From Sphaerolaimus hirsutus (lineage: Eukaryota; Nematoda; Chromadorea; Monhysterida; Sphaerolaimidae), in assembly GCA_964036195.1 (NCBI GenBank), contig OZ038457.1, positions 10,753,147 through 10,817,146 on the forward strand: 64,000 nucleotides of DNA. Direction: 5' to 3'. The notes beneath the pieces are model-generated. The model made no database searches, was not told the origin of the DNA, and worked only from the letters and a program-made list of their open reading frames with translations. Below, piece after piece: positions 3,801 through 64,000 of this stretch. Made by a program: the position numbers and the translations under genes. Numbering within the stretch: the first letter of the stretch is position 1; each line of letters begins with the position of its first letter.

Positions 3801-4296
3801 AGAAAACACTTTACCCGCAGCGGAGGGCGCAGTACGGCCGTTTCGCCGCTGCAGCAGCATAATGGCCCTGTTCCAGGTGGGTACTTTCTAGGCACTTCGT
3901 TTTTATTCTCTCACCGTGCTCTGTACCGGTGCCGAACTTCGCAGGGCTGACCGAGTGGGGCGCTCAGAGATGGTTGGCGTCGCGCAAACTCGTCAAATCG
4001 GCCCGAAAGTCGATCGCATCAAAAAGACCGTCGCCAAAGGTAAATAGTAAATATGGCAATTAGGTATACTCCTCATTTTGATGCCGTCGCTAAAAAAAGC
4101 TCCTGGCGCGTAGAAATCGGCGGGCTCTACACCAAAATCTGGCGGCGTCGCCAAAAAGAGTGGCGTGCGTAAATCGCCAGCAAAAACGGCGGCCGGTGGG
4201 AAGCGGCGCCGGGTGCGGCGGCTGAATGTGCCCAAAGAGACGGTCGCCTGCCAGACGACCCCCTCCCTGCGCAGCCACGCCAAGGCTATTGGGTGA
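670..4296 (+). CDS. Vaccinia-related kinase (VRK1/NHK-1-like), C-terminal seven exons
   Basis: This is the 3' part of a VRK-family serine/threonine kinase gene. Joined exons are 670-859, 2014-2124, 2438-2631, 2974-3194, 3821-3876, 3945-4039 and 4114-4296: 1,050 nt, or 349 aa plus TGA, with every splice phase consistent. Visible motifs are the catalytic loop HADVKGENLL (Asp codon at 730), DFG metal-binding motif (Asp at 802), the VRK-typical GTLQFASIDAH with SFRGD in the activation region, and GTLPWWDE. VRKs usually have HGDIK and DYG, so these two motifs are variant, but the key Lys, Asp and Asn remain. After the kinase core comes a roughly 190-residue tail rich in Ser, Lys and Arg, with KRRRVRR as a likely nuclear signal. 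Family knowledge: VRK1/NHK-1 phosphorylates histone H2A and BAF in the nucleus. N-terminal exons lie outside the window. VRK1 versus VRK2/3 cannot be settled from sequence alone. Confidence 0.88.
895..1919. repeat. Foldback (word-hairpin) element in VRK intron, interrupted by a MITE
   Basis: The left end CTGGCGCCAGTCCCGCAAGT and the right end ACTTGCGAGACTGGCTCCA are inverted copies. The arms are made of repeated words (CTCTTGACTTTA on the left, TAAAGTCAAGAG on the right). The 640-bp MITE at 987-1626 and a second small hairpin near 1650-1820 sit inside. The ends match other foldbacks at 52,983 and 56,407. Confidence 0.7.
987..1626 (+). mobile_element. hAT-like MITE, family A (TAGGGTTGG ends), copy 1
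   Basis: The terminal inverted repeat is TAGGGTTGG...CCAACCCTA. It is flanked by the 8-bp duplication CTCTTGAT (979-986 and 1627-1634). The ends carry inverted A-tract/CGTTTTTT modules, and the interior contains CCCAGATATGACC and GCGCGCTGTGCGCAAAA. There is no transposase. Because the host sequence is itself rich in CTCTTGA words, the duplication alone would be weak here; copies at 34,973 and 54,369 support it independently. Confidence 0.82.
2014..2124 (+). CDS. VRK exon b: activation segment, substrate-side helix
   Basis: The acceptor is TTTATCAG and the donor AAAG|GTTCGA. It encodes AHEGTLQFASIDAHKGAG and SFRGDVQSLLFNLLYWLK. The GT(L/I)xFxSIDAH block with RGD is diagnostic of VRKs. It enters and leaves in phase 1. 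Confidence 0.9.
2159..2425. mobile_element. Degraded fragments of two MITE families
   Basis: Bases 2159-2220 resemble one end of family D (CAAGGACGTATCC followed by C/G homopolymers). Bases 2320-2425 resemble family G (TTATTCAAGGGGGGATT... ending GCGAATACAGTA). No clean flanking duplication remains. Both lie in the VRK intron before exon c. Confidence 0.5.
2438..2631 (+). CDS. VRK exon c: kinase C-lobe
   Basis: The exon follows CACACAG and ends at AAG|GTTTGT in phase 0. It encodes GTLPWWDETNGDKVL and continues to the end of the kinase fold (TPDYNAILK). Its start is confirmed by the split Gly codon shared with the previous exon. Confidence 0.9.
2710..2892 (+). mobile_element. Truncated family B MITE
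   Basis: The left end CATAGTTGTTAAAGTA is intact, followed by the family's TACTCGAGTAC words. The right end is missing. It lies in the VRK intron between exons c and d. Confidence 0.65.
2974..3194 (+). CDS. VRK exon d: Ser/Lys-rich linker
   Basis: The acceptor is GAACACAG and the donor GCAAG|GTTGGT (phase 2). It encodes ELRSMSKVHSSPVKQ, then a low-complexity acidic/serine stretch and KQRRGRRTPA. Sequence conservation is expected to be low here, so the call rests on frame and splice-phase continuity. Confidence 0.78.
3412..3625. repeat. Diverged word-hairpin foldback
   Basis: It begins GGAGCCAGTTCGAGACC and ends ACAGGGCCCGGGACTGTCC. Inside are AAAGTGTCAA-type words on both strands. It is related to the hairpins at 32.1, 39.5 and 41.4 kb but is less symmetrical. 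Confidence 0.5.
3821..3876 (+). CDS. VRK exon e: short tail exon
   Basis: This 56-nt exon lies between TTACCCGCAG and TTCCAG|GTGGGT. It encodes GGRSTAVSPLQQHNGPVP. It is needed to reconcile phase 2 from the previous exon with phase 1 at the next one, and it does so exactly. Confidence 0.7.
3945..4039 (+). CDS. VRK exon f: basic tail exon
   Basis: The acceptor is CTTCGCAG and the donor CCAAAG|GTAAAT (phase 0). It encodes LTEWGAQRWLASRKLVK and a basic stretch ending KRPSPK. Confidence 0.75.
4114..4296 (+). CDS. VRK last exon: basic C-terminus and stop
   Basis: The exon follows acceptor GGCGCGTAG and ends in TGA at 4294-4296. It gives 60 residues with KRRRVRRLNVPKETVACQTT near the end. Repeated SPK/KKSG-like words suggest a chromatin-binding or nuclear-localising tail. 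Confidence 0.78.
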   Translation, partial: KSAGSTPKSGGVAKKSGVRKSPAKTAAGGKRRRVRRLNVPKETVACQTTPSLRSHAKAIG

Positions 4297-4880
4297 ACTA
4301 GTGCTGTACTGCAGTTGGATAACTGCCAATTGTTTGCACCCTGTAGTTTTTTTTCGGGTAACTGGTAAAATTGATAAATAATGATGGTTGTTTGATTTGC
4401 CACTACCTAATTGGTCGGCCGATTTCCATGTATTTTTATGGCACATCAGTATTGATATTTTGCGTGTGAATCTGTAGTTTTAGGTAGAATGCAAATTTTT
4501 GTAATTTTATTTCTCTACGGGCATTCACTTTTATCGGATTGCCGTTTCTATTGCGATTGAGTAAAAAATGTTTTGCGGTTGGTGGGGATCTCTACTTGAC
4601 GTGGTATTTTCATGTTTGCTTTTATTCATTCTGTTCTATTCCTTCTGTATTGATTGAGTTGCTTCGTTTGAACAATGATGGTCTTTTCAAATTAGACTTC
4701 CGTTTCAAACAGAAACATTTGCATACATGAATATGGATGATCATTACCGTTGTTTGCACACGCATGAGAAGCTGCGCCTTCTAGCGTCTCGGGAATTCGA
4801 CTTTGTTCTTCATTTGGTCCATGTATCCATGTAGCACGTATCGTATACCTAAGAATTTATTCACAGTGATTAGTTAGTCG
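4297..4880. other. VRK 3' flank
   Basis: This is AT-rich sequence after the VRK stop, presumably 3'UTR followed by intergenic DNA. I see no canonical AATAAA close to the stop; an ATAAATAAT at about 4375 is the nearest approach. Confidence 0.4.
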
Positions 4881-6700
4881 TCGGTGCCGAGCCGCCTCAA
4901 CGTGGCCGCACGCGTGAACGCGCCGCTAGTTGCATGAAACCGCCGCCGCGCCGCAGCTGTTCGACGCGCTGCAGTGTAATCAACGTCGCGCCGGCCGAAG
5001 CGGCCGCGGTGGTCCGCTAGCCGCCGACGAGCCGCTTCGTTTCACACAATCGAATGTGGCTATACCTTTCGAATGTTGCCGGCTAGCTCCGCGCTTCTCG
5101 CCCGCCCCGCCGCGGTTCTCTGCCTGTGTGCTGTGCGGGCTTACTCTCGGCCCATCCAAAATTGTGCGGTGCGTCTAAAACCACCCGCCTCGTTGTTCGC
5201 GCTTGTGTACACGCGCCGTTTGATCGAGTCTGCTTTCCGCGAGAACTCGTTTGAAACATCTAGCCGCGCCGCTGAGCGCTGGTGCGGCCGCCAAAGCCGC
5301 TGCGTTTGCAGTTCTGATAAGCACCGAGCGCAGATAACAAGCGCGGTTGTTTGCGTCACGGCGGCGCACCGTGGGATTGGGGGCTGTGGCGTGTCCAGAG
5401 TCCGGCTCATCCGTCCCTTGGGCGCCCTAGTGTCGCCTCGCTGGCGCCCGTTTAGTGTGACGACCAAGTGAGATGGCTGCCGGCGGCGCTCTCAAAGTCC
5501 GCCGGCTGGCGGGCACTTGGACTCTGCGTACATGCGCGAGTGCATGTGCACCGGCGTCCGGTCGCCTGGCTGAGCGGCGTGCGACCGTGCACTGTGCCCC
5601 GCCGTCGAGCGGGTGGGCGTGCGGCCGATCGATACGGCTTGTGCAGCTGCCGCCCCGCCGGTCCCCTCGCAGCGTGCGCGATAGAGGGCATCCTCGCTGG
5701 CCGCGCCGCCGCCGCTGCCGCCGACACACTCAGCGCTGCTCCACTCCGACTGCAAATGGCCAGCCACGTCTAGTTAGCTGGCGTCCGGCCGCGGCGCACC
5801 GCTCGCTCGGAGACTGCGCCGCGCTGGTGGCCGTTGTGCTCTCGCGCCGCCGCGACGCCGCTGCACAAGAAAGGTGCTCGGCTGGTCGACTTCGTGCCGC
5901 CACCGATAGCCGCTTTAGGTTTACCTGCGCTGCGCCTTGTATACCTTGTCCGTGGCGGTGGTTGCTCGCGTTGTTGAAATAGTTACGGCGTAGTGATTTT
6001 GTGATATTTGTGTTTCCCATGTGCCGTGGCCCATGCGACGCGATGTGTTACCGGCGAGTGAAGCGCGCGGCGACGCAACGCAAATATGACCGACGTGTTG
6101 TTCCAGTTGGGCAACGGCACGCATAAATTATTGGTGTTTGCCCGGCACGCTTCAGTTGCGTCTGCCCAACCCATAGCGCCTCGTGCGGTTGCGCGGCAAG
6201 CGCCGCGGGCAGGTGATGCGGACTGTGGCGCGGCGCAGCCCTTTTCTGGCCTTGCGGCCGAGCGACGGCGGGTCGGCGTCGCGGTTGGCGCATGCAGCTC
6301 GAACGCGCGCGCTCAGCCGTTGCATGCAATTGCAGGCAGTGGGAACTCGGAACTGGCCATGCGGCTGCTGCACCTAGCGCCGCGGCCGGCTGCCCAAGTC
6401 CGGTCGCGCCGCTGACGGCGACCAGCTCATGTTGCATGCATGCTAGGCGGCCGGGCGGCGGCAGTCGGCACCAAGTCAGCCTATCCTTCCCCGTCGCTTA
6501 TACAGATACCGTAGCGCCCTCACCTGCCCATGCATGCATCCTGTTGCCCATGCAAAACTGTTCAAGTTGAACTCAACTTCGACTCGAGGCCACTTTAGCG
6601 ATCGTTTCCTTCGCCGCCCTGCCGCCACGCCCGGCGCGTCACGGCTGGCTGCTGTGCGCCTGTGCGGTGGCGCCAAAGCCGCGGCGCGCCAAACTTTCTC
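4880..6700. promoter_or_regulatory. Large CpG island
   Basis: About 1.8 kb is very rich in C, G and CpG, in sharp contrast to the AT-rich flanks. Many long open frames appear on both strands, which is expected by chance at this composition. I recognise no protein, clear start or splice structure. It may be the promoter or first exon of an unrecognised gene. Confidence 0.45.
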
Positions 6701-7180
6701 TTTTGTCATCTTACTTTCACATACTGCATTTTCTTTATTGAGTAGAACTTCACTTGAATATTGTCTACTTATTTACGTGGAACTTATTTATCTCAAGATC
6801 CGAGATTGTCTGTGCACCTTCAGTCAGTCTGATCCGGTAAATTGGGTGTCTTTTTGCTCTGGTTAATCGAAGGGTTTAATATTCCTCGGAGGCATTTATT
6901 TTCTGTTTTTGCGCGAATTTTAAGCCAAAGTCGATTTCCGGCCCTCGGCTGTAGTTCACCGCATTTTTCTGCAAAACGCGTGATTTTTTCGTGGTCCCTA
7001 AATATTTATTACCTACTCTAGATTACTTTAAGTATTTTACGCGGTGGTAAGATTTTGCCCTGAATTGAGTATTTATACTATCCATCCGCGTTCACAGCGC
7101 TAAATACATGGTGTAAATGTTGTTAAAACCACAATTATTTAGATTCTATATAATCATATAAATATGTATGAACAGCCCAC
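6701..7180. other. AT-rich intergenic stretch
   Basis: Nothing recognisable is present. The CpG island ends abruptly near 6700. Confidence 0.4.
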
Positions 7181-7688
7181 CAGGTCTTCTAGATTTCGAC
7201 CCTCCGGGGAGTTGGATAGATAGCAAATCGCTCCTCCGGAGGGATAGATAACTGAAAAAATTTCTGGGTGGGGGGTTGGGGGTGGGTTCGCGCGGGTTCA
7301 ATATATAGGCATAGGAGGAAGAAAAGGGAGAAAAATCGCTAAAAGTATATGAAAAATGGTATATAAGCACATATACTACTAAAAATAGCTGAAAATAGGT
7401 AAATAGGAACAACAACTAGTATTTTGGAGGTGAAAATCTATTTAAAAAAGTATGAAAAATAGCGATTTTGAGCGAAAATTAGGGTCGTGTTTCTCAAAAA
7501 TCGCTCCAGATAAGTAGATAGCTGGCCGATTTGGGGGGTGTAAGGGGAGAGTAGCCCAAAATTTTGCCTCCGGGATAGATAGATATGTAGCTGAGCGGCC
7601 TCCGGGATAGATAGATAGCTGGGCGGTTTGGGGGGGGGGTAACCCCACACAACCCCCCCCCCAACCCCCCCCCCCTTTCGTACCCCTG
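7181..7688 (+). mobile_element. hAT-like MITE, family I (GATAGATAGATA interior)
   Basis: It starts CAGGTCTTCTAGATTT and ends TACCCCTG. The flanks CAGCCCAC (7173-7180) and CAGCCAAC (7689-7696) match at 7 of 8 positions. The interior has GGGATAGATAGATA words and long G runs shared with copies near 34.1, 44.4, 55.8, 57.8 and 61.5 kb. There is no coding capacity. Confidence 0.65.
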
Positions 7689-8222
7689 CAGCCAACACAC
7701 ATGTCTAGTTCAAAACCGTTTTGGCGACATCAGACTCGAAATTGCGGCCGGTCATGTCGCACCGCACGCAGAACTTTGACGCAGCAGCAACTATGTCCAA
7801 CGACTAGTGATATTGAAGGCACCGCACCGCACCGGGTTAACACCCATTTCGGCCGCGCCATCTCGGCCGTGAACATTTTGGCCGCGCCGTTCCGGCCGGA
7901 GGACAGTTCGGACGTGGCCGTCTCGGCCGTGGACAGCTCGGCCGCGCGCCATCTTGACCGCGGGGACATCTCGGCCGCACAGGTATTTACACATGCGGCA
8001 ACGTAATCCTTACTCACGGCTACATAAACGAACAGAGGCACCAACATAAAATGATGCCGCGCATTGCACTTGAGTTCCGGCAGGCTTAAATAAATATGGC
8101 ATACACATTCAACTTTCAAACTCATTTGATTTCCACCATCTGCATAAAAGGGCGTGCTGCGGATTAGTTACAAGTGCATGCTATGTTTGATTCCAAAAAA
8201 AATCCTGGGTTGCACATGTGAT

Positions 8223-8690
8223 CATAGTTGTTAAAACATATTTACTTTTACTCGATAAATATGTATACTCGAGCACAGAGTAAATATGTTTTCGTTTCTT
8301 CAGAAAAAAAAGTTCTGGTACTCACTTTTACGTATACTGAATTACCTCAAAATACCCCCATGAGGGTTTAGTATTTCACCAGCAAAATTTGAGGGGGCAG
8401 TTAATTTGTGGGGGCAATTTGAGGGGGGCTTATTTGAGGGAGGGGGGTTATTATTTCATCAGAAATTTTCGTGAAATTCATAGTAAAGAATACACTTTTT
8501 CATACACAAAAACGCTAATAAACGGAGAAAGTAGGTTATATTGGGGCTATAGATGTACATCTGTACACAAATAAGTGTTTAAGTGTAGCTGCAATGCAAA
8601 TAAGTAGTGATAAATACTCAAGGGGTGAGAAAAAAATAATACTTTATGTTTACACATACTTTGAAAAAAGTTAGGTACTTTTAACAACTG
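8223..8690 (+). mobile_element. hAT-like MITE, family B, copy with nested family G fragment
   Basis: The ends are CATAGTTGTTAAAA...TTTTAACAACTG. The flanks CATGTGAT (8215-8222) and CATGCGAT (8691-8698) match at 7 of 8. From about 8338 it contains a family G piece (ATTACCTCAAAATACCCCCA with G-rich words), so family G inserted into a pre-existing family B copy. Confidence 0.75.
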
Positions 8691-8970
8691 CATGCGATTT
8701 TGCCCTAGACGTTCATCGATTCACTTCTCATCAATGTGAAATGGCTGAAATTGAAATTTTATCTGCTATGTGAATATTCTATTTGTATAAATTGCATTGT
8801 TGAAAAACGAAAATAAATGCTTGTATTCAGGTAAAAATTAATACGCTTGTATAAGGTCTATTTATGTTGTAAATATTTAGGTAAATAATATGTATGGTAA
8901 TTTTGTAATACGCAAAAGTGAAAAGATGTTTACAAACAAACAATACAACGTTAATTACTCCACACCAGTG

Positions 8971-9131
8971 GCCCCACACATGCTAGTTGACATCGACACC
9001 AAATGTCAACTGGTTCCGTTCCCAATTCAAAGCATGTGTTTGAACGTCAATCGTCGGCTCGTCAGCAAACTTTGAATCGGGATCGGCATCAGTTGACATT
9101 TGGTGTCGATGTCAACTAGCGTGTGGGGGCC
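8971..9131. repeat. Foldback element, family F (CACTAGTTGACA type)
   Basis: It is a near-complete inverted repeat: CCCACACATGCTAGTTGACA...TGTCAACTAGCGTGTGGG, with inner ACACCAAATGTCAACTGG and its complement. It lies in the loop of the 7845-10043 element. Confidence 0.75.
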
Positions 9132-9403
9132 CATTCCGCGCTGCGCCATTTGTTTCTACACAAACAACAACAATGTAACGTATTGAATGGATAGACACCT
9201 TACGTCATTTCGGTAGTTCCCAACTGGGGCGTCTGTTCCTGCCCCATCAATGTTGCTCTACACGTGTAGTGTGATGTGCATTTGAGTCTCGAGTTCATAT
9301 TACCAATGTGCCGCATGTGTAAATACCTGTGCGGTCGAGATGTCCCCGCGGTCAAGATGGCGCGCGGCCGAGCTGTCCACGGCCGAGATTGCCACGTCCG
9401 AAC

Positions 9404-9967
9404 TAGGGTGTCAACAAAAACTTTTTGGCGGAAAACGGAAACGGAAACGGAAAAAATTTTGCACATGCCGGAAAACGGAAACGGAAACGGAAAAAAATTT
9501 GCACTTGCCGGAAAACGGAAAAATGGAAGGCCGGAAAACGGAAACGGAAACGGAAAAATTTGCTGAAATTATGCCGGAAACGGAAAAAATTTGCTGAAAT
9601 TTTGCCGGAAATGGAAAAAAATTTGCAGAAATTTATCCTGAATAAAAAAAATTTGCAGAAATCTCACTAGAAGTAGGAAAAATTCACTTCATTGAGAACC
9701 TGCATGCATTTTTACCAGTTTCGCTGAAACAGAAAACAGAAAACTGAGCTAGAAAGTGGAAAAAAGTTGGAAAAACAGACAATTGAACCGGAAAATGGAA
9801 AAAGGCGGAAAAACTGAAAAAATTTGCCGGAAAACGGAAAATGACCCGGAAAAACGGAAACGGAAACGGAAAAAAAATTTAGCAGCCGGAAAACGGAAAC
9901 GGAAACGGAAAAAATTTCCCTGCGGAAAGCGGAAACGGAAAACGGAAAACGGAAAGTTGACACCCTA
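9404..9967 (+). mobile_element. hAT-like MITE, family C (TAGGGTGTCAA ends), purine-rich
   Basis: The terminal repeats are TAGGGTGTCAAC...GTTGACACCCTA, with an exact 8-bp duplication GTCCGAAC at 9396-9403 and 9968-9975. The interior is almost entirely GGAAAACGGAAACGG words on the + strand. It interrupts the right arm of the long inverted-repeat element, so it is the younger insertion. Confidence 0.88.
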
Positions 9968-10045
9968 GTCCGAACTGTCCTCCGGCCGGAACGGCGCGGC
10001 CGAAATGTCCACGGCCGAGATGGCGCGGCCGAAATGGGTCCCTAC

Positions 10046-10860
10046 CTGGCCGGTGCCGCCCCGGTGTCTCTTATTTTGGCCCTGGTGCTAGCACCCAAAG
10101 GCACCCTCGAAAAATGCACCGCACCCACACGTGGTGCTATTTCCCAGTGCCTTTCGTCACTACCAACGACCAGCCCCGGTAGCGAGCAGCTGGAACTGGT
10201 GACATGCTGAAACTGCAAGCTCCTTTGTGCCGCCCGTTAGCCCGCGGCAATTGGCCGCCCACATGTTTTTAGTTTCTGCTCATCAAAATTGCTTCTCGCG
10301 GTTGTTGAATTCGATTGCCGGCGTTGAAGCACGGGTGTTTTTGCATTCATTGCATTGAAAATAGCTGACCTTGCATCGGTGGGGAATGATCTATGTAGTG
10401 GTATATGAATGAAAAATAAATTACTTATCAATTTCTCAACACATTCCATTTTGTTTAGTAAGTATTAAGACTTTGTTGTGATTTTTATTATTTAATGGAA
10501 ATACATTTCAAAAAACAATATCAGCTCTAGAAATTTCTGTAAATATCAATTTGAAACGATTCCCACATGTTGTTCCGGTTGAAGTCTTAGTAAGCAACAC
10601 AGTTGTTTATTATTTGTTTATGTGTACCTATTTACTTTTACTCAAAATGTATGCATACTAGAGTACAGAGTAAATATCTCCAAGTAAATATTTGAAAAAA
10701 GTATTTGTACTCACCTTTTTGCTTACTTTTTGCGAGTACTTGAGTACAATAGAGTAATTTTTCCTGGTATTTTCCATTATATTTTACCAATTTTTTTTGA
10801 AATGCTAACCATAACTTAACTTTCTTTTCATGTAGCCCTGAAGCAGAGTATGTAGTGTTC
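10046..10860. other. Intergenic, repeat remnants
   Basis: Bases 10,046-10,200 hold GGTGC/GCACC-rich words similar to about 23,330-23,400. Bases 10,605-10,770 hold a decayed family B MITE (TTTACTTTTACTC, AGAGTACAGAGTAAATA). Nothing coding is recognised. Confidence 0.4.
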
Positions 10861-10864
10861 CGCT

Positions 10865-11310
10865 GTTGTATATAAACCCACGCTATGTCAGGTTTCAGGG
10901 CTCATATATAAGGTAGCAGTTGGTATTATTAGTCAATCTTGGCTCAACCACCAATCTATTTTCTCATTCTACAGTTGATCAGATCTCCACTCCAAATCTT
11001 TACCACATGTTTGTGATGTTTTAGAAGTTGGAAACATTGATCCTAGTAGAATCAGGACCACTTTCCTTCACACACCGAGCACCACACCATTGGCAGAGCT
11101 CAACACCTTTTGATTGTAACTCTGAATGTGCTAGGCAGTTCACTTGTGGTGCACAAGCTGAATGGAGAAGTTTCGAGAGATGTGGGTGCAACAAATATTT
11201 ACTTCTTAATGGAAAGAAAACACCTTTTTGTTGTCCGGAGTATTTGTATTTGTATTGTTTATTTGTATTGCCCTTGATATGACTACACGCCAGCGATTAT
11301 GTTAAATAAA
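10865..11310 (+). CDS. Possible small transcription unit with a Cys-rich open exon (unrecognised)
   Basis: Two TATATAA boxes (near 10,870 and 10,905) precede possible acceptors TTCTACAG (about 10,974) and GATGTTTTAG (about 11,024). An open frame follows to about 11,282, with AATAAA at about 11,303. The frame has no ATG and a stop directly before it, so it can only be a terminal exon. Cysteines fall as C-x3-C-x5-C-x12-C-x-C-x14-CC, as in secreted Cys-rich peptides, but I recognise no family. It may be a gene remnant or chance. Confidence 0.22.
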
Positions 11311-11620
11311 CACTGCCGCTTATATGAGTCGACTGAAAAGTTTTTGTATACAATCATAGCTTTGTACCAGCGTAAACACACATTTCCACATGACATACGC
11401 ATACACAGTACGTGAACACACACTGCACATACGTACATACGTGAAAAACACACATCGTATAAGAAAATATCGGAATTGAAGGTGTCGTAGAAGTCTTTCG
11501 TCCAACAGCTGCTAGAGGCCGATGGTGTCCGCGAGGAGAGCTGTATGCTGCCGGCGCGGTTGTAGTTGATGACTGTCCATAGATATGTATTTTTTGTCTA
11601 TTCAGCTGACATCCGTCAGC

Positions 11621-14600
11621 TCATACATGGTCGCACAGATTGTTGTTCGAAAATGCTGGTTCCCCATGCTGTGCAATTGAACATCTATCTAGGCATGTCA
11701 TTATATGAGCGTGCACTTTCGCTCTGTGCGAATGGCATCTTTTTGCGGAGATTGCCCATTTTATTAACTCTGAACCGTGTAGTGACTTTTCTACGCTACC
11801 ACACACACAACCTCCTGTTTTTTTTAGATCCATAAGCCTTCTTTGCGATGCCTTGTGAGCACATGATTTCCCAAACATATGACTTAAAGTCAGTGGGATA
11901 TTTAGACCTTTTCTGCTACAGGCATTACAGAATAGCATCTCATTTTTAGGATACTGTATACAGTTGTACCTGGCTTGCAGCCACAGCCAATATTTGCCTG
12001 ATAGACTTTTCAAGTTCAATTTATTGAGTGCTTCACCAAAACGTAGTTTTTGACTCGAATGGGTTATTAGTAATGCTAGACTTTCTCTTTCGCAGATCAA
12101 GTTTGTATATTTTTTCAGAGTGGCCTTTAACATGCACCGACTAAATGACAAACTGATACCAAATCGTTCTGCTGCTTGTACGACGCGACCGTAGATTGTG
12201 ATTGGCATTTGCCTGTTTTTATATTTTTTCGTTCCGACGGTACTTAGGAACGTGTATGCACTGTACAATAGCATATTCTGCGTTTGGCACAAATATCTAT
12301 CATAGTTCAGCATATGCCGTTGGAGGCGGTCTGACGGTCTGGTGCCCCCTAGCTCATGCCGCAGGGTATCATTGCAGCAGTTTTTTGGTAGTTTTGCAGC
12401 TCTTTTCAACGTTTGTAGGTACATTCTATCCATCAAATCTACGTGTTTTTGACGCACTGCAACCACTTCTAGTCCATATAAGATAGCGCTTTCGGCATAT
12501 GTTTTCCATATATGGTTTGCGTACCATAGTGGTCTGTGACTTCTACTGCTGCAACGAACTATCATCCCCTGCAGGCTTTTGGCTTTGTCCATCGATTTGT
12601 CTCTGTGTGTGGCAAAGGTATCCTTACTACTTGTGAACCATACGCCCAGATATTTGATTTTGTCTGTTTCTGTGATGAAAGTAGGCATATTTTTACGCGC
12701 AAACCCTAGACGCCACTTTTTGATTACATCAGCTTTTTTGCCCCATTTTAAAATAAAGCTTTTTGATGGATTTATTTGTAGGCTCCAATCCCATGCCCAT
12801 TTACTGAATATATCCATGATTTTTTGCAGTTCAAATTCAGTGTTGGCAGCCAGACAAATGTCGTCGGCAAACATTAAGGCGGGGACAACCTTTTTTTCCA
12901 GTCTTGCTCCATATCCGGATTCTTCCAAATGTAGCCGCAAATCAGCTAGATAGATTATGAACCCAGTGGGAGACCAGCAGCACCCTTGGCGTAGGCCCAT
13001 TGGGTAGTTTTTTAACCCAGTACATACATTGCCAAATTTCAAACGGCATTTTTGGTCCTCATAAGTATTGGATATAGCTGATATCAATTTGTGACTGTAG
13101 CCGAAATGACTCATTTTTGCCCAAAGTTTCCTTCTATCCACCCGATCAAACGCCTTTACTGCATCAACGAAACAAGTGTACAGGCTTCCCTTCATTTTAT
13201 CTGCATATTTTTTGCACCCTTGCAGTATTACTACATTATCTAGCGTTCTGCGTTTACCCCGAAACCCCCCTTGGATATCACCGAATCCGCCATTGGTTTC
13301 AAATGCGTGTAGCGTACGTTTATTAAGTATTGAAAGGTATAATTTTACAATATTGCAGCCGATCCCCAGTGTCCTATAGTTTTTTATGTCCATTGTGCTA
13401 CCTTTTTTGTGCAGAAATACCATTTCGCAGACACGCGCTGTGCTAGGAATTTTCTCTCCTTCGAACCACCGGTTAAAGATTGTTACGAGAGCCAAAATCC
13501 TGGAACAGTCAAATGATTTAAGAACCTCATGCTGTATTGACGTTGTTCCGGCTGATTTACCATTTTTCATTTTCTTGATGGCTGATCTTACCTCATTTTC
13601 ATCAATTGGCAGGTCCATCAATTTTTTGTCTTCCATTTTTATTATATTAGCACCTTTCCATATTCGTGCATCGAGATTTTCCGCCCCTGGGTTGGTTGTC
13701 ATGACAACATCCCATGCTTTTGATAGCTCTTTTTCAATATCATCATTTGAGGTAATGATACCATCAGCATTTTCCAGTGCAAAATTTTTAAACTCGGCTT
13801 TTTTGTATCCATTGACTAATTTATAAATTGAATTAACCCCCCATTGCGCGCTGGTGCTGGATTTTATGATGTAGTCACTTTCACCCTTCATTTCGCAGTG
13901 TTTCCTATATTTGCGTAGTTGCATACGGCATATCTGTAAGTGTAGAAGTGATTGACTGTCAGTTTTATTTTTTTTTAAATGTCGCCTTGCTGTATTTAAT
14001 TTTTTTATCAGTTTCGCCTCAGTTTCGTCATATGCCGCGCATTTCTTACCAGTGCCAGATTTTGACACTTTTTTACAGTGTTTGTGAACCGAATCAACGA
14101 GCATTTTATGGTCACAATTGCCTGCGTCCAGCGGATCATTCGATAGATTATTTTTAAACTCTGGAATCTCATGTATTTTTAGTTTTACCAGCGCAGGCTC
14201 GGCTTTTTGTTCATAAGTACTCTCTCCTGATGTCTTTACACTGAACTCAGCCATCAGCGCATTGTGGTCGCTTATTAAATTGCTATATTTACCATTTTCA
14301 TCCACTGCCCCGCGTACGAAGTTTAAGCTGCGTCCCATGTAGCAGATATAGTCTATGATTGAGCTGCAGTTGCTGCGCGTAAACGTCCATTTCCCGGACA
14401 TCCGTTTGTTAGCCAGCGTAATACCCGATTGTTTCAGCCAGTTTCTTATTATTTTGCCATTTTCATTCACTGGTTTATTGTTACCTTGTACCCCCCATTT
14501 GTCGCATCCTATATGGCCGTTTAAATCACCCAGTACTAAACTTGAAATACCTTTTTGTAGATTTTGGCGTAGAACTTCAGATACACTATGAAGTATTTCG

Positions 14601-17600
14601 GTATTCAGGGCTGCATTCGCATGATTTTTGCGTACTTTACCATTGTTTTCCAAATACACCAGAATCACGCTTACATTCTCATTTTGACATTTCACCATTA
14701 CATGCAGAATGTGATCTTGAACATCTCGCGATTCTGTATTTCCAACAAATTGACCGTGTAGATCACGTTTTACGTAGATTGTAAGCCCCCCCGCACAATT
14801 TTTGGATTTTTTAAAACAACTAAAGGCTTCATAACCATCAAGATCCGGGATATCGAGACCACATTTTGCCTGTGTCTCACATAGAGCAATCACATTTAAC
14901 TTTGTAACCCCCTTTTTGTGAATATCCCCCACCGTAGATGCCAGTGCAGTAAAATTTCCGCGCATTGCCCGGACATTTTGATAAAAAATACTTTTGATAA
15001 AAAATGCCCCACTTTTTGTGTGTAATCTTTTTTTACCTTTGTCATATAGATTTTTTAAACCTCCGCAGATCAACCCAGCCGTAGCAACCCCCACATTTTT
15101 TGAGTTTTTTACCCCCGGGTGTATATTAGCATCCATTGCGTACACACTTTCGCTGAGTAGGCATAGGTACATAACAAGCATGAATAGCGAGCAAGTGACA
15201 GTGTTATATTTATAATTTTTTTCAATGATAAAACCACAACATATAAATGTAAGGTAATCATAAAACGACGATTTCAAATTATCAGTTAGAGCATTTTTCA
15301 CTCTTTCCCAAATCAAGTTTTTTGCACCAAAAAAGCGATTTTTAAATAAATTTTGTGCATATTTTCGCCCGATCTCTATAAAAACCGTATTGGAAACTTT
15401 TTTCGTGAGATTTTCTATTCCATCTCCCAGCCGCATAGCAAAATACCAATACAAACACCGACACTTGTCTGTTGCAGAGGTGGTTTTGCACGTTTTGTCT
15501 AATTTTTTGCTGTCAGATCCGGAAAAATTAAATCGATCAATAATTTGACTGGTACCCTGGCAACAAGCGTTAGTACTTGGATCATACAAATTTCCAAAAA
15601 GTATCACCACAAGACGACATGCGCCAAAACTGCCATTTGCGTAATCGTGCCTGTACCTGAGAGAGTTTTTACCACGTTTTAGTGAATTTTTTGATACGTT
15701 CGCACTAATTTTACGAATTTCACCCAATTTTGTCATCAAACCCACCTTTTTATCGGCATAACCATCGCAGGGTTTCTTCAACCCCCCCTGTGGTATCCCC
15801 AAGTATTTTTGGAAGAACCATATTTGCCTCCAGCATTTCGCGTGTAGCCGCTGTCCACTCGCTGCTGAAAGCGCCCGCCGACCCGCTGTAAAAGTGGGAT
15901 TTCCTCCGATAGATATTTTTGTCGTGTATGAGTAAATGTTTTTGACAAACTTAGATTTGTCCTCTAAAAATTTTATCATCAATTCGCGGCAGCATATGGC
16001 ATCAAACGCCGCCGATGGGTGCAAACCATCCAATTTTATTCCAAACAAAAACCCGACGGGACCGGATTTGTTCCCTGTCAGTTTTTCAGAATTTTCAGAT
16101 AGCCATTTCAGGGGTTCCAGAACAACCACACGTTTTTCACCCTCCAAATAGTTTTTTGTGTGGTCTTCGAAGCACAGCATATAATCATGAAATTGGCGCA
16201 CATTCTCTGCCGACATGCCGTCTTCGATTCCCGAGGGCAATATCGGGTTGTGTGGTGCGAGCACAATTAGGGTGTGTACCATGCCGTGCTCATTTAACCA
16301 TTTCACAACCCTTTGAAGCATTTTCAACAGCGGTTTTAGGAAGTAGTTTTCCCAGATTTTTAGACGCGACGATTGACTGTGCGTCATTTCAGATTCAAAT
16401 AGCTCGCACGCCATCGAATCGAGGCACGTGCGCACGAAGAGCATGTCAAAATTTTTGTCAGGCTGGTATGACTGCATCACAATTGGCAGCATGCAGCCTA
16501 GGCGCTTGCCATTGAAAAGGTTGCCAAAATCAGTGACACATAATTGCACATTGCATTGCCGCGCCAGGCTGAAATTTTTATATTTACAATTACATTCACA
16601 TTTGCAGGATTCCTTAAATGTTAAAGTAGTTAATGTAACACACCGCCTTAGTTCTAATTTGCACCGATTTGTACAGCTATCACCAACAATTAACACCTTC
16701 AGTTGCGTGAACGGCATATTAATTTGTTTATCTTTAATTAGACCCGGTTCCACGCCAAACATCTGTAGCGCCGGAAAATCTCTGTGTGGCGCATTTGGCA
16801 CCCATATACCACCCTCAAATATTAGAGAAATCAGACTTTTGATATTTATTTCACCATCAGCCACGTTTGGCACAGACACCATGCATAGATCGGCGTCGGT
16901 TGATAAACCCACAGCGCGCATGTTCACCACTTTGGCCAGAGCTGCCAGCGCAGTTTGTGGCAAATCCGATATTTTCACAACTTTTTGCCAATTATATTCC
17001 GAACTGCGACCCTTGCGTACCTGAGAGTGGTTGTAGTTTGAACCGTATGCGTTGTTATCTCCATATTCGTAAACCGTCCCAACATTTTCATGCGCCGCGT
17101 GCCCCTGCTCGGGATGCTTGTCCTGCTCAGCCCCAACCACCACGGTGCGCTGTTTTGAACTTGCGTTAGCGCCGCGCGGCCGATCTTCGCGTGACTGAGT
17201 GAGCATGAAATTAATGTTTGGAGTAATTGACGTATAAACTAGACCCCTCATTCTATCAAAAAATTTTTGTGTCCGCCCAACTTTTCTATTACATCTTTTC
17301 GCCCATTTTTGCGCAATTTTAGACCAGCGGGTTTTTGATATACACGAAGTAGGTATTTTTAAGTCCAGAAATCGCAAATAGAGGACATCAGCTATAACCT
17401 TATTCGATGTGTCCAAGTAACTCCCGATGCGCATGCTGCGCGGCGCCATCGAGCTGCTCGGCATCGAGCTGCTCGGCATCGAGCCGGTTGGCAGCTCGGT
17501 CGAGATGCCGCTACCGCGCGACTGCGATTTTGCGTACAAATAAATAGTATAGCCAGTTTTAGCACATACCGTAGCTAGTATTTTATTTTGCAAGTTTTTA

Positions 17601-17719
17601 CGAACATCGATTTTTATTCCATTTATAAGCCATCTGGCTGCGACACCCTTTTTATACAACACTGCTCGTCTTAAGACATAAATGGGCCCCATACTAACCA
17701 GGTTCAGATTTCCGAACAT
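11621..17719 (-). CDS. LINE ORF2: SGNH hydrolase + APE endonuclease + reverse transcriptase, 2032 aa
   Basis: The polyprotein is needed for target-primed reverse transcription. The start chosen is the ATG at 17,719, one base after the ORF1 stop; the frame also extends upstream to about 17,875 without being needed. Domains in order: a Ser/Met-rich low-complexity stretch (about residues 79-97); an SGNH/GDSL-type hydrolase with LIVGDS (Ser about 348) and DGLHPS (Asp 564, His 567); a Lys/Phe-rich spacer ending in a hydrophobic segment and DANIHPG (about 863-869); an APE-like endonuclease with YQNVR (about 913), GDLNGH (Asp 1065) and SDHN (1150-1153); a reverse transcriptase with FADD (1617-1620) and an upstream FVDAVKAFDRVD block; a C-terminal CNAC...H...C zinc-like motif (about 1931-1953). 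There is no RNase H. Conserved active-site residues are present, so activity is plausible. The hydrolase call rests on two motif blocks; its Gly and Asn blocks are unclear. Confidence 0.86.
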   Translation of the reverse strand: MFGNLNLVSMGPIYVLRRAVLYKKGVAARWLINGIKIDVRKNLQNKILATVCAKTGYTIYLYAKSQSRGSGISTELPTGSMPSSSMPSSSMAPRSMRIGSYLDTSNKVIADVLYLRFLDLKIPTSCISKTRWSKIAQKWAKRCNRKVGRTQKFFDRMRGLVYTSITPNINFMLTQSREDRPRGANASSKQRTVVVGAEQDKHPEQGHAAHENVGTVYEYGDNNAYGSNYNHSQVRKGRSSEYNWQKVVKISDLPQTALAALAKVVNMRAVGLSTDADLCMVSVPNVADGEINIKSLISLIFEGGIWVPNAPHRDFPALQMFGVEPGLIKDKQINMPFTQLKVLIVGDSCTNRCKLELRRCVTLTTLTFKESCKCECNCKYKNFSLARQCNVQLCVTDFGNLFNGKRLGCMLPIVMQSYQPDKNFDMLFVRTCLDSMACELFESEMTHSQSSRLKIWENYFLKPLLKMLQRVVKWLNEHGMVHTLIVLAPHNPILPSGIEDGMSAENVRQFHDYMLCFEDHTKNYLEGEKRVVVLEPLKWLSENSEKLTGNKSGPVGFLFGIKLDGLHPSAAFDAICCRELMIKFLEDKSKFVKNIYSYTTKISIGGNPTFTAGRRALSAASGQRLHAKCWRQIWFFQKYLGIPQGGLKKPCDGYADKKVGLMTKLGEIRKISANVSKNSLKRGKNSLRYRHDYANGSFGACRLVVILFGNLYDPSTNACCQGTSQIIDRFNFSGSDSKKLDKTCKTTSATDKCRCLYWYFAMRLGDGIENLTKKVSNTVFIEIGRKYAQNLFKNRFFGAKNLIWERVKNALTDNLKSSFYDYLTFICCGFIIEKNYKYNTVTCSLFMLVMYLCLLSESVYAMDANIHPGVKNSKNVGVATAGLICGGLKNLYDKGKKRLHTKSGAFFIKSIFYQNVRAMRGNFTALASTVGDIHKKGVTKLNVIALCETQAKCGLDIPDLDGYEAFSCFKKSKNCAGGLTIYVKRDLHGQFVGNTESRDVQDHILHVMVKCQNENVSVILVYLENNGKVRKNHANAALNTEILHSVSEVLRQNLQKGISSLVLGDLNGHIGCDKWGVQGNNKPVNENGKIIRNWLKQSGITLANKRMSGKWTFTRSNCSSIIDYICYMGRSLNFVRGAVDENGKYSNLISDHNALMAEFSVKTSGESTYEQKAEPALVKLKIHEIPEFKNNLSNDPLDAGNCDHKMLVDSVHKHCKKVSKSGTGKKCAAYDETEAKLIKKLNTARRHLKKNKTDSQSLLHLQICRMQLRKYRKHCEMKGESDYIIKSSTSAQWGVNSIYKLVNGYKKAEFKNFALENADGIITSNDDIEKELSKAWDVVMTTNPGAENLDARIWKGANIIKMEDKKLMDLPIDENEVRSAIKKMKNGKSAGTTSIQHEVLKSFDCSRILALVTIFNRWFEGEKIPSTARVCEMVFLHKKGSTMDIKNYRTLGIGCNIVKLYLSILNKRTLHAFETNGGFGDIQGGFRGKRRTLDNVVILQGCKKYADKMKGSLYTCFVDAVKAFDRVDRRKLWAKMSHFGYSHKLISAISNTYEDQKCRLKFGNVCTGLKNYPMGLRQGCCWSPTGFIIYLADLRLHLEESGYGARLEKKVVPALMFADDICLAANTEFELQKIMDIFSKWAWDWSLQINPSKSFILKWGKKADVIKKWRLGFARKNMPTFITETDKIKYLGVWFTSSKDTFATHRDKSMDKAKSLQGMIVRCSSRSHRPLWYANHIWKTYAESAILYGLEVVAVRQKHVDLMDRMYLQTLKRAAKLPKNCCNDTLRHELGGTRPSDRLQRHMLNYDRYLCQTQNMLLYSAYTFLSTVGTKKYKNRQMPITIYGRVVQAAERFGISLSFSRCMLKATLKKYTNLICERESLALLITHSSQKLRFGEALNKLNLKSLSGKYWLWLQARYNCIQYPKNEMLFCNACSRKGLNIPLTLSHMFGKSCAHKASQRRLMDLKKTGGCVCGSVEKSLHGSELIKWAISAKRCHSHRAKVHAHIMTCLDRCSIAQHGEPAFSNNNLCDHV
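17440..17505 (-). repeat. 15-bp tandem repeat inside LINE ORF2
   Basis: GAGCTGCTCGGCATC is repeated about three times on the + strand, the last copy diverged. In ORF2 it encodes the repeat GSMPSSSMPSSSMAP. Being a multiple of three, copy-number change keeps the frame. Confidence 0.75.
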
Positions 17720-17720
17720 T

Positions 17721-20039
17721 TCAACATATCTTTTTTTGTGTTTCCAGCTGGGGGTTGGCACACCAGATACCGGTGCCAGTATATTTGGCGTAATCGCGGT
17801 CATACATTTTGGTTTCCGCCGGATTTTCAGTGTGTATTTTGCGCAATCCGTCACAAAGATCCATGTATACTTCACCCAGTAGCCCCCAGTAGGGTTTACC
17901 CCAGCCCTCCCTTTGTTCGTCCGGCAGCAACACCTTCGTGAGAAAGCACAATTTGCGGCTATATGACATGGTTTTTAGATTGGAGGTGCCTTCTGTAGGC
18001 ATATTATAAATCCAACCATACCCTTTTTTGTTCTTTTTGGTTTTATAATCCCAATAAAAAGCACGCAAGTTTGTACTATTATACGCGTTTTGATGTTTTA
18101 TTTGTTTTTCTGTATTCGCAAAAAACAGTGTGTGAACCCCCGAGGTAAACCCCCGAACCCCCATGGAATGCTTTCCAGCGGTAACTATATTCAGTAGATT
18201 TTTCCCCATTTTTAGAGTGTCATACATGTCTGACCCAACAACAAATCTATTTTGAGTAATTACCTCTGGCTCATACTTCTCGGCGCCAATCATTAGCGCA
18301 GATCTGAAGTCGTCCGGTCGATTCACAGAGTAGGGGTAGACGCCGCAGCTGCGCATCTGTCTGTGCAACGTTTTTCCATCAATTTCCTGGTATGTGCGCA
18401 CCAGGGTCGATGCGAGAGGTTTATTGACAGCCAGGGCCGATTGTACCTGAGTCGATGTATGTGTTGTGTATATTGGATCTATTGTCTGTACACCTGAGAT
18501 ATAAGTCCCGTTTTCAAATATTTTTGATCTCACCACTTGTCGCAGCGCCACGCACGCCGGGGTGAACTGGGCGTATTGCAACGTGTCTGCACTGTCTTTC
18601 CCGTACCAATTTTTCCCCTTAGGCAAAGACGCCCATAATGCCTGCGCCTTAAAGTACCATAGGCGGAAAGCATTGTCGTACATGTTCGGCGCGTGTGTGC
18701 GATAATCCCCATTTAGACGAAATAACTCTTGTAATTGATTTTCGCTTGCGCCGCAGTGCACCGATTGTAACTGTGGGGTAATGGAGATTTTTAGTAATAT
18801 TATGCATCGACATAAACCTACTTTTTTACATAGACCCATTTTTTTATACGCAGACCCACCCTTTTCACCAGTATATTTTGTGTATCCTCGTACAGTATTT
18901 GAGATCGTAATTTTAAACTTCGCAACCCATTTTGCAATGTTATTTATTTTTGACTTTTTGATGATTTTTATCACTACGCTATCAAAAAAGCGGTATACTT
19001 CTGAAGGGCTTATATACGACATAAAACCCCACAAATTGTATTTTTTCCCACTAACACGCATCAGACCCAACATCATGCAATTGAAACTCTCATCTAAACC
19101 TTCCAACATCACCACATGCGGCCACACCATAGAGAAGCAGTCGCTGTACTCGAATGTTGCAAAGTGGAGGGGTTCAGGCCCCTTAGGCGGGGCGGGGGTG
19201 GGTGGACTTCCGACCAATTTTAGCGCCTTAACCTCCTCACTGAGACATTTTAGCCGGGCATCGACATCACAGACATAACTCAAGAACGTGTGCATCGTGC
19301 CTAAGTCCACGGTTCGGTTGCCCTTACCCGAGGCTACGCGTTTTCCCATAGCCGCACGCAACAAATCGATGTCCAGTGTGTTCAGAATTGGGTCCTGGGA
19401 TGGGTAAACATTTCCCAGTGTGCGCCATATTATCCTATCCAGGTTAAATCCCATACCCCCCTTCCCAACCAATTTTTGCGGGTTTGTAACATCATCACGC
19501 TTCGGGGTCGATCCATGTTCGTCCAACGCCGGTTTCTTTGCGCCGATGTCACACTGCGTATAATTTTCGTATTGTAAAACAGTTGCGCAATTTAATAGCA
19601 GTAGTTGTATATACCAGCACCGTAGCATTTTGCCATGTATTTTAATACAGTTTTTGGGGTACCTTTCGCTTTTTGTATACATAATTTTGTGTATGACACC
19701 AATTTCACAATTTTTTCTGACCGGAGATTTTGACAAATGTGTTATCCCCATACGAACCTCTCCGGTATCCGCTTTTCGTTTTAGCACTTGAGTGGACTCC
19801 TCCATCGCATCAGCGGCCGCCGTCTCCCCGTGGTCAATTGTATTGGCCACATGCGCATCGCCCCCGTTGATAGACATGGTGCTGTCACTGGCCGTACTGG
19901 AGCTAGTCGAGGAGCCAGTTGATGAGCCACCCGACAACGATTTTGACCAAATAGTACTCGTGGGGGAATCCGGGGAGTATAATTTTGGACTTTTTGACTT
20001 TGACTCAAATTTTTGGCTAGTTTTGACAATTTTGGACAT
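17721..20039 (-). CDS. LINE ORF1, 772 aa, unknown type
   Basis: The start chosen is the first ATG of the long open frame (20,039), giving MSKIVKTSQKFESKSKSPKL. The frame continues upstream without an ATG. The N-terminus is Ser/Lys-rich (SSTGSSTSSST), followed by an unfamiliar folded-looking region with aromatic/Cys-rich blocks and the C-terminus GIWCANPQLETQKKIC. I see no CCHC zinc knuckle, RRM or coiled coil of the usual LINE ORF1 kinds. Two AT-rich stretches with many Lys/Ile (about residues 100-160 and 330-390) look like inserted low-complexity sequence that stays open. It ends TGA one base before the ORF2 ATG, so ORF2 is probably translated by termination-reinitiation. By position it is expected to be the RNA-binding protein, but that is inference. 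Confidence 0.72.
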   Translation of the reverse strand: MSKIVKTSQKFESKSKSPKLYSPDSPTSTIWSKSLSGGSSTGSSTSSSTASDSTMSINGGDAHVANTIDHGETAAADAMEESTQVLKRKADTGEVRMGITHLSKSPVRKNCEIGVIHKIMYTKSERYPKNCIKIHGKMLRCWYIQLLLLNCATVLQYENYTQCDIGAKKPALDEHGSTPKRDDVTNPQKLVGKGGMGFNLDRIIWRTLGNVYPSQDPILNTLDIDLLRAAMGKRVASGKGNRTVDLGTMHTFLSYVCDVDARLKCLSEEVKALKLVGSPPTPAPPKGPEPLHFATFEYSDCFSMVWPHVVMLEGLDESFNCMMLGLMRVSGKKYNLWGFMSYISPSEVYRFFDSVVIKIIKKSKINNIAKWVAKFKITISNTVRGYTKYTGEKGGSAYKKMGLCKKVGLCRCIILLKISITPQLQSVHCGASENQLQELFRLNGDYRTHAPNMYDNAFRLWYFKAQALWASLPKGKNWYGKDSADTLQYAQFTPACVALRQVVRSKIFENGTYISGVQTIDPIYTTHTSTQVQSALAVNKPLASTLVRTYQEIDGKTLHRQMRSCGVYPYSVNRPDDFRSALMIGAEKYEPEVITQNRFVVGSDMYDTLKMGKNLLNIVTAGKHSMGVRGFTSGVHTLFFANTEKQIKHQNAYNSTNLRAFYWDYKTKKNKKGYGWIYNMPTEGTSNLKTMSYSRKLCFLTKVLLPDEQREGWGKPYWGLLGEVYMDLCDGLRKIHTENPAETKMYDRDYAKYTGTGIWCANPQLETQKKIC

Positions 20040-20239
20040 GTGCCAAATTTTGAATTTTTTAATAGACGGGTATAAAACGGTGATAAAACGATGTATCTGC
20101 GTGTAACGGTCGTAGAAAAGGGTAAAAACGAAGTCGCAAACAAAAACTAAGACGGAAAAACCAAAGAAACACCGCCCCAAAGGGCGTCAGGGCGTACTCC
20201 ACAGACGTAGTCTCTCTTCTCAAGAAAAACCGGTTTTCG

Positions 20240-21400
20240 ATTTTTCTTTTTTTTCATAATGCATGAATGGCATGAAAATATTCATAATGCTCCCTTCTAA
20301 ATTTTCCAGAAGCGTACGGTAATTTTATGCTTTGATTAGAAAAAATAATCTTATTTACGCTTTCTGGGCTGGGGGGAAATATTTTACTCTCGTTTACTCC
20401 TAATAATTTATGCTTTCTGTACTTGGGGTGAATAAAAACAAAAATACTTTATGCTTACACATACTTTGAAAGAAGTTTGGTGCTTTTAACAACTCTGGTA
20501 AGCGATTGGTTCAGCGAAGATTTCTCCACAGAATTGTAAACAATAATCCCTTTGTCTCCACGCACACTATTTTACGGCTTTGAAAAGGATTAAATTTGCC
20601 GGAGTTAGGAATCCGTCGACCATTTCTGACAGAGATTAAATGATGCATGTGGGAAGAGAGAAGAAATGGAAGCGCTTGTGATAGGTGTGATTTAGCTCTA
20701 GTCTCCACATATGACGCCAAGCGACAAGTGATCAAACCGTTTACATCTGAATTCATATTTACGCACTCACGCTGGGAGATAATGAATGAGGAATATCGTC
20801 ATTCAGTCATCAGTTCGTCATTCACTTTTTGGACGAGTTTTCAAATTGGAACCGTGAAAACTAGCTTGTGTGGCCACAATACTGTAGGGCTTTGCTCCGT
20901 TAACGTAACATGCGCTGCTCGCGCCTGTGATGGCAGAGTCAAATGTGTTGGAAACAGTTGGATTTATCAGTTTCAGGAATTTCGGCCGTGAACTGAGAGT
21001 GTGGCCACATTGCGCTAAAACTTCACTTTCTGACAACGCCATTTGTATTTGTGCTTCATGAAATGTCCCTCCACTTTGCGACTGCCGAACCCCCAAATGG
21101 ATGATATGGCTGATTGAAATGTTTCAAATTCGCGCGTCGAATTTTGAGTGTATTCATCTTTCTACGAAACTTTTTTTAGTTTAATCCGATAATTGGTTAA
21201 TGTATTAGGTAAGCGGAATTGTTCCTTAGTTCACATTTCGTCGCACATCGCGCAAATGTTGCAAAAATGCCACTGTGAAGTTCCTCTTCCACAAACGGAA
21301 ACCATTCCTTCTCAATTTTACCCGCTTTCCGATGCAATATGTTCATCACAATCTATTTACCTATCTACTTTAGCCGGTGTACAAAACTAATGCAGAGCGG
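20240..21400. other. Intergenic; truncated family B MITE at 20,375-20,497
   Basis: The right half of a family B element (CTTTCTGTACTTGGGGTGA ... TTTTAACAACTCTG) is recognisable. The rest, about 20,500-21,400, shows no coding signal or repeat that I can identify. Confidence 0.5.
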
Positions 21401-32965: not shown

Positions 32966-60850
<27,885 letters not shown>

Positions 60851-62944: not shown

Positions 62945-64000
62945 TCTTTGCTGTTAAAAGTACCGATGTACAGTGCTGAAAATTAAAGTTTCAAATTTGT
63001 GCAAAAAGAAGTACTGATCTACATGTATATCAGTACCTTCGGAATTACCAATTGTGTTAATTTGCAATTTTTAGGCACCTTTTTTGATGTGTGCTTTTAG
63101 AAGTACCGATCTACAGCAAGAATGAATTTTTTAAAATTTGTGCAAAAAGAAGTACCGATCTACATGCAGATCAGTACTTTCAGAATTCTGTGTTGGCCCT
63201 ATTTTGATTAAAAGCGACTTTTTCGAAGGTGTACTTCTAGAAGCAATGATCTACAGCACAAAAATAAAATTTCAAAATTTGTGCAAAAATAAGTACTGAT
63301 CTACATGCAGATCAGTACTTTTAGAATTCCGTGTTGGCTTTATTTTGATTAAAATTGACTTTTTTCTAAGGTGTACTTCTAGAAGTACCGATCTACAGCA
63401 CAAAAATAAAATTTCAAAATTTGTGCAAAAATAAGTACTGATCTACATGCAGATCAGTACTTTTAGAATTCTGGGTTGGCTTTATTTTGATTAAAATCGA
63501 CTTTTTTCTAAGGTGTACTTCTAGAAGTACCGATCTACAGCAAAAAAATTTTTTTTCAAAATTTGTGCAAATAAAAGTACTGATCTACATGCAGATCAGT
63601 ACTTTTAGAATCCCGTGTTAGCTTTATTTCGATTAAAATCAACTTTTTTCCAAGGCGTACTTCTAGAAGTACCGATCTACAGCACAAAAATAATATTTCA
63701 AACTTTGTGCAAAAAGAAGTACGGATCTACATGCAGATCAGTACTTTTAGAATTCCGTGTTGGCTTTATTTTGATTAAAATTGACTTTTTTCTAAGGTGT
63801 ACTTCTAGAAGTACCGATCTACAGCAAAAAAATAAAATTTCAAAATTTGTGCAAATAAAAGTACCGATCTACATGCAGAACGGTACATTCAGAATTACTC
63901 ATTTTGGCTATATTTTGATGAAAAGCAAACTTTTTTCCGAGGTGTGCTTCTAGAAGTACCGATCTACAGTAGAAAAATAAAATTTCAAAATTTGTGCAAA
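62945..64000. repeat. 142-bp tandem satellite, continues past the window
   Basis: The GTGTACTTCTAG box recurs at about 63,089, 63,229, 63,371, 63,513, 63,655, 63,797 and 63,942, a period of 142 bp. Each unit carries the perfect palindrome GTACTTCTAGAAGTAC and a hairpin GTACTGATCT...AGATCAGTAC around ACATGC. Open frames in it are not genes. Confidence 0.9.

Follow-up and report, generated by a model that had tools for sequence, protein, structure and literature searches.

Why should one open frame in a nematode genome join a hydrolase-like domain to an endonuclease and a reverse transcriptase (RT)? The question is raised by a retrotransposon copy in 64,000 nucleotides (nt) of DNA from Sphaerolaimus hirsutus (GenBank assembly GCA_964036195.1, contig OZ038457.1, positions 10,753,147 to 10,817,146 of the forward strand), a stretch here called the window, in whose numbering all coordinates are given. 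We propose, with a probability of about 0.7, that the copy belongs to a non-LTR (LTR for long terminal repeat) retrotransposon, or long interspersed nuclear element (LINE), in which open reading frame 1 (ORF1), encoding a gag-like region and an SGNH-like hydrolase, is split by spliceosomal introns, one of which, L1, switches between the ORF1 protein (ORF1p) and an ORF1-ORF2 fusion.

The earlier note on this DNA had seen hydrolase-like blocks, an APE endonuclease and an RT in one frame, and motif coordinates together with a match to the Pfam family RVT_1 bear this out. The frame is open on the minus strand from 17974 to 11624 (2084 amino acids counted from a GTG at 17875) and contains LIVGDS (16693-16676), DGLHPS (16030-16013), GDLNGH (14530-14513), SDHN (from 14272) and FADD (12871-12860), with 221 residues from the start of LIVGDS to the start of DGLHPS. 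The layout, which the same note had suggested looking for elsewhere, recurs in 10 other, divergent copies within this genome. They match the hydrolase part (34-42% identity) and the endonuclease-RT part (45-61%) separately, and the genome search assigned both matches of each pair an equal frame length, a figure that may bridge stops (2821 versus 1998 in copy E02, 2454 versus 2264 in L039).

In the 348-Mb genome at least 34 matches were found with the window protein and at least 187 with the spliced ORF1p as query. We assembled 23 copies, E01 (the window copy) to E24, there being no E08, and later added L037-L042. The ORF1 alignment comprises 12 of the 23 (E02, E03, E05, E06, E07, E09, E10, E12, E13, E17, E18 and E24); E02 represents the window copy in it, and the other 10 are frame-broken or have no ORF1 in the fetched stretch. 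Single frames of 2626 and 3023 amino acids, measured from stop to stop, run through E10 and E13, and L040 has one of 2717. In a tree of the RT, L039, L040 and E24 form a well-supported clade apart from the remaining 22 rows. The L039 type is a second subfamily with fewer introns and the same switch, and it appears to be multi-copy, to judge by similar matches on several contigs.

A proposed switch intron and candidate introns of ORF1

The stretch behind the hydrolase is laid out as follows.

15886..15950, minus strand: proposed switch intron L1, of 65 nt (2 mod 3); its removal would give the ORF1 stop, its retention the fusion frame
15750..15885, minus strand: last ORF1 exon (C-terminal tail) with stop, in a frame different from the fusion frame
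15744..15745, minus strand: GT of a donor-like GTGGGT right after the ORF1 stop
15137..15749, minus strand: spacer of hypervariable sequence that stays open in the fusion frame, with a hydrophobic stretch at its end, before AMD

Past the hydrolase the copies share a conserved peptide in another frame, which is reached once L1 is removed. In all 13 copies (12 if E06, like E05 one of two near-copies, is left out) L1 begins with a phase-2 donor GTNNGT and has a length of 2 mod 3. It measures 62-89 nt, or in L040 either 74 or 92, and its acceptor ends in CAG. The tail that follows is 44-52 residues long, and in 12 of the 13 copies it is closed by a stop; in the window this stop lies about 260 nt beyond DGLHPS, in a different frame, and is reached on removal of the 65-nt L1. 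With L1 retained, nine copies have no stop in 224 L1 codons and none in 413 codons of the last exon, and the spacer, also counted in nine copies, has a single stop in 1516 fusion-frame codons versus 101 and 102 in the other frames. The linkers of L039 and L040 are without a stop in the fusion frame. In 12 of 13 copies, a small intron would thus lead to a stop when spliced and on towards the RT when retained.

Just before the ORF2 core, at 15131-15190 (minus strand) and in many copies, the hydrophobic stretch is followed by a small-x-small motif and M[DEN] (VYA/MD, CYA/MD, VSA/MN), which resembles a site for signal peptidase or the start of ORF2. For a further intron downstream of the ORF1 stop, which was also considered, no acceptor common to the copies was found.

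Upstream of L1 the window copy has eight more candidate introns.

15750..20039, minus strand: ORF1, from the first ATG (MSKIVKTS) at 20039 to the stop TAA at 15752-15750, with nine proposed introns
19554..19757, minus strand: intron I1, 204 nt
19395..19469, minus strand: intron I2, 75 nt
18771..19055, minus strand: intron I3, 285 nt
18447..18533, minus strand: intron I4, 87 nt, exactly missing from E10
17934..18263, minus strand: intron I5, 330 nt
17522..17698, minus strand: intron I6, 177 nt, its place empty in subfamilies L039 and L040
17195..17398, minus strand: intron I7, 204 nt
16569..16643, minus strand: intron I8, 75 nt, phase 2, within the hydrolase-like domain, exactly missing from L039

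When the ORF1 copies were aligned, conserved blocks were found to be broken up by sharp-edged inserts that are unrelated in sequence and length. We read these hypervariable inserts as spliceosomal introns; a first reading as membrane segments was given up for most sites. Edges were counted for 43 inserts from 11 copies (47 rows minus four of E06, which are near-copies of those of E05). All 43 have AG at the acceptor, 36 have G at donor position +5, and 42 have a pyrimidine at position -5. The same edges are found in six independent inserts at I7, in three at I2 and in eight inserts of L039 and L040. Where the acceptor codon was tabulated it is CAG (6 of 6 and 8 of 8) or AAG (10 of 10), counts that include the near-identical pair E05/E06, and the synonymous CAA and AAA are never used. 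The edges of I8 do not depend on a Val or Gln that is conserved: the insert is preceded by the Arg codon CGG (9/9), and CAG stands ahead of the next exon (12/12).

Some inserts are missing to the nucleotide. I4 is absent from E10 and present in its relative E07, I6 is absent from L039 and L040, and I8 from L039; L041, which is related to E10 at 96%, lacks 250 nt close to I4 through a deletion and is uninformative on the loss. Once the inserts are removed, ORF1p aligns well along most of its length, with 893-991 amino acids in the four copies that have the whole ORF1 (in E13 one intron is left in). In the copies analysed I1-I8 appear to keep the frame whether retained or spliced, and to do so without an in-frame stop: among 2535 intron codons the fusion frame has 0 stops, the other two frames have 184 and 178, and each of 500 single-base shuffles gave at least 152.

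A proposed splice switch and its alternatives

If L1 is spliced out, ORF1 would close at the conserved stop, and ORF1p (gag-like region plus hydrolase, about 920 amino acids) would be produced alone. If L1 is kept, the ribosome would remain in the other frame, pass the ORF1 stop and continue into the endonuclease and RT. Intact copies would in this way yield ORF1p from spliced RNA and the ORF1-ORF2 fusion from unspliced RNA, like Gag and Gag-Pol. An RNA keeping I1-I8 would still be translatable because its frame is unchanged and stop-free, and the unspliced RNA would serve as template and also as mRNA for the fusion. An RT made from unspliced RNA and acting on it would be tied to intron-bearing RNA, and the introns would therefore be kept in the family despite its RNA life cycle. 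Actual splicing, translation of the unspliced RNA and the Gag/Gag-Pol-like role are what we infer from the letters. The odds, in our judgement, lean towards the wider proposal of a LINE lineage in which splicing controls ORF1p versus fusion through one switch whose length is not a multiple of three, together with up to eight frame-neutral, stop-free introns, in which RT is supplied in cis only from intron-bearing RNA, and in which introns are kept for this reason.

Several points weigh against the proposed introns and switch. Lengths in multiples of three and the absence of stops are one fact, since the edges were set within one open frame and long-frame copies were chosen, and both follow from this way of sampling, although the count itself is still a striking one. 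Except at I8, the search patterns demanded a Val codon (GTN) where a donor was sought and a Gln or Lys codon where an acceptor was sought, and the donor GT is therefore partly built in; some donors are poor (GTATTT, GTAATT). The acceptors of L1 were picked by eye ahead of the conserved exon. In the last ORF1 exon the differences show only a weak bias among codon positions 1, 2 and 3 (511, 513 and 636), and the reading frame of this exon therefore rests on the conserved peptide and the stop. Close pairs of copies differ by too few substitutions for selection to be gauged. The I6 row of E13 (609 nt) extends to the I7 acceptor, and a missing insert could instead mean a gain in the other copies. 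Frames are broken in E02, E03, E06 and E12, in E03 within the ORF1 tail; ORF1 of L039 contains one stop close to the I2 site, L038 has one in the RT, and the one stop in the spacer is that of E09.

The explanation that comes nearest to the proposed switch accepts that ORF1 is spliced, and holds that the stop-free introns merely shield unspliced RNA from nonsense-mediated decay, that the fusion is functionless, and that ORF2 is translated from its own ATG at AMD. Of the 10 copies shown, 6 have G at positions -3 and +4 of this ATG, and of 11 copies 10 have a donor-like GT no more than 12 nt beyond the ORF1 stop. By the 50-nt rule a stop this close to a junction escapes decay. Such an escape needs no open spacer of 128-211 codons joined in frame to ORF2, yet this is what 8 of the 9 copies counted have, and we consider the explanation unlikely. 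That the element encodes a genuine polyprotein in one frame, unspliced and with hypervariable linkers whose edges would reflect amino-acid conservation, appears highly improbable to us. The frame is indeed open in many copies, and protein constraints might account for the Val and for the Gln or Lys at the edges; such constraints do not explain why synonymous CAA and AAA never occur at acceptors, why the edges at I8 and L1 are in phase 2, why inserts are exactly absent from some copies, or why a conserved exon in another frame ends in a stop.

The earlier note had explained the single frame of the window copy by a domain shuffle that carried the esterase from ORF1 into ORF2, and had taken an upstream ORF1 (17721-20180) to be separate. 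The other copies do not agree with this: in 12 of 13 examined the hydrolase sits between the gag-like exons and the ORF1 stop, and we regard a shuffle as scarcely credible. The supposed separate ORF makes up the first portion of ORF1 itself, set apart by a short out-of-frame indel near 17.74 kb relative to E02, and the apparent ORF1/ORF2 split is due to this frame break within ORF1 of the window copy. E02 has an unbroken frame from ORF1 into the endonuclease (1998 amino acids) and is broken later, between endonuclease and RT. The note had also allowed for a chimera of two adjacent ORFs. This comes close to what the copies have, with the difference that their arrangement is conserved and would be one frame in unspliced RNA and two in spliced RNA.

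The proposed switch bears on the balance of ORF1p and ORF2p in LINEs and on the use of one RNA as both mRNA and template. A natural LINE with a splice switch, if that is what this element is, would allow cis preference and ORF1/ORF2 stoichiometry to be tested by way of its splice sites, and introns would survive in an element with an RNA life cycle. It would also serve as a warning that an uninterrupted open frame in a retrotransposon is no proof of one protein.

Hydrolase, endonuclease and reverse transcriptase

The domains and the whole copy have the following limits.

15951..16720, minus strand: SGNH-like domain, motif-based (LIVGDS, DGLHPS), limits approximate
11621..15136, minus strand: ORF2 core, from the M of AMDAN (putative start), with APE endonuclease, RT and a C-terminal Cys/His cluster
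14230..14990, minus strand: APE-type endonuclease (GDLNGH, SDHN), limits approximate
12638..13411, minus strand: RT domain, RVT_1, residues 1489-1746 of the 2084-amino-acid frame
11245..20252, minus strand: whole element copy, about 9.0 kb, its ends being where similarity to copy E02 (C16) stops

The hydrolase-like domain appears to belong to ORF1, downstream of the gag-like region, which is so named by position and has no domain match. That it may be of the SGNH type, as had been claimed, is suggested by motifs: the catalytic Ser in GDS and the Asp and His in DxxH are invariant across 10 alignment rows. On the other side, the inferred block-III (oxyanion hole) position, placed by motif and spacing, has Leu and not Asn in 10 of 10 rows, and neither Pfam nor PDB gave a useful match to this part. 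A profile of the domain compared with E. coli TesA by hhalign aligned 16 columns at a probability of 3%, and PF13472 had no match in the S. hirsutus genome. We call the domain SGNH-like, a name taken from the motifs only.

The RT of the window copy matches RVT_1 at 3.8e-26, and RVT_1 was found in all 13 aligned copies. Exo_endo_phos_2 was found in 9 of the 13 (best 2.3e-11); the window copy is among the four misses, and its endonuclease is called from motifs and aligned relatives. An APE endonuclease upstream of an RT is the arrangement by which an APE-type LINE is recognized. The best PDB matches of the RT are R2 proteins, from which no clade placement follows for an element with an APE endonuclease. 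Neither the window protein nor the endonuclease-RT profile had a match in viral contigs, and the profile had none in prokaryote contigs; no eukaryote genome collection was searched for relatives.

That the element has dispersed is seen from E01 and E02, which lie on different contigs: blastn aligned them in two pieces (E01 coordinates 1249-10256) with 99.4-99.5% identity across 9 kb, and their flanks are unrelated. Both end at the 3′ side (window 11245-11275, minus strand) in short ATACAA-type repeats, not poly(A). A target-site duplication of at least 7 nt was not found for the window copy, and E02 has one 7-nt match, not at both edges.

Known elements and the surroundings of the copy

The closest analogue is the barley LTR retrotransposon BARE1 of the Copia type. 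The one open frame of BARE1 carries an intron of 104 nt where gag ends; splicing of this intron shifts the frame to a stop just beyond Gag, and unspliced RNA continues into pol (PMC3735527). BARE1 is an LTR element for which that text describes one intron, whereas the S. hirsutus element is a LINE with up to eight further candidate introns that are frame-neutral, with endonuclease and RT replacing pol, and with splicing that is predicted. The same text reports that in copia splicing removes 2950 nt of pol to give a Gag-only RNA and that Ogre splices between ORFs (PMC3735527); both share RNA splicing with our element, and both are LTR elements.

With regard to its domains the element resembles ZfL2-1, a LINE of the CR1/L2 group with a type IV ORF1 that contains an esterase (PMC3905857; PMC4120745). 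Both have an ORF1 hydrolase with catalytic Ser and Asp/His motifs, and endonuclease and RT in ORF2. In ZfL2-1 N195 of the hydrolase lines the oxyanion hole, and the available portions of the two papers mention no introns, whereas the S. hirsutus element has Leu at the inferred place, candidate introns, and a long gag-like region ahead. Spliced RNA of the human L1 element can insert, giving spliced integrated retrotransposed elements (SpIREs), and such copies are generally dead ends (PMC5860796). E10, which is without I4, may have arisen in a SpIRE-like event; in the S. hirsutus element splice-like sites recur across subfamilies. Among the matches listed for open-licence PMC titles and abstract openings, which leave subscription papers uncovered, we found no LINE with ORF1 introns or a splice-made fusion.

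Penelope-like elements, as Arkhipova is said to have reported in 2003, keep introns though they move through RNA. They share the keeping of introns with the proposed element, belong to a different class, and are not known to have a frame-neutral design or a splice switch.

Near the element, at 9429-9956, lie GGAAAACGG-rich tandem repeats. On the plus strand the open stretches 34393-34839, 43290-44276, 46015-46473 and 48108-48595 resemble exons of an animal plasma-membrane Ca2+ ATPase, which we take to be the family of this host gene and which would point to an animal host; by eye its exon ends resemble GTNNG donors, a likeness too weak to be used. At the window end (62958-64000) stands a tandem array with a 142-nt unit.

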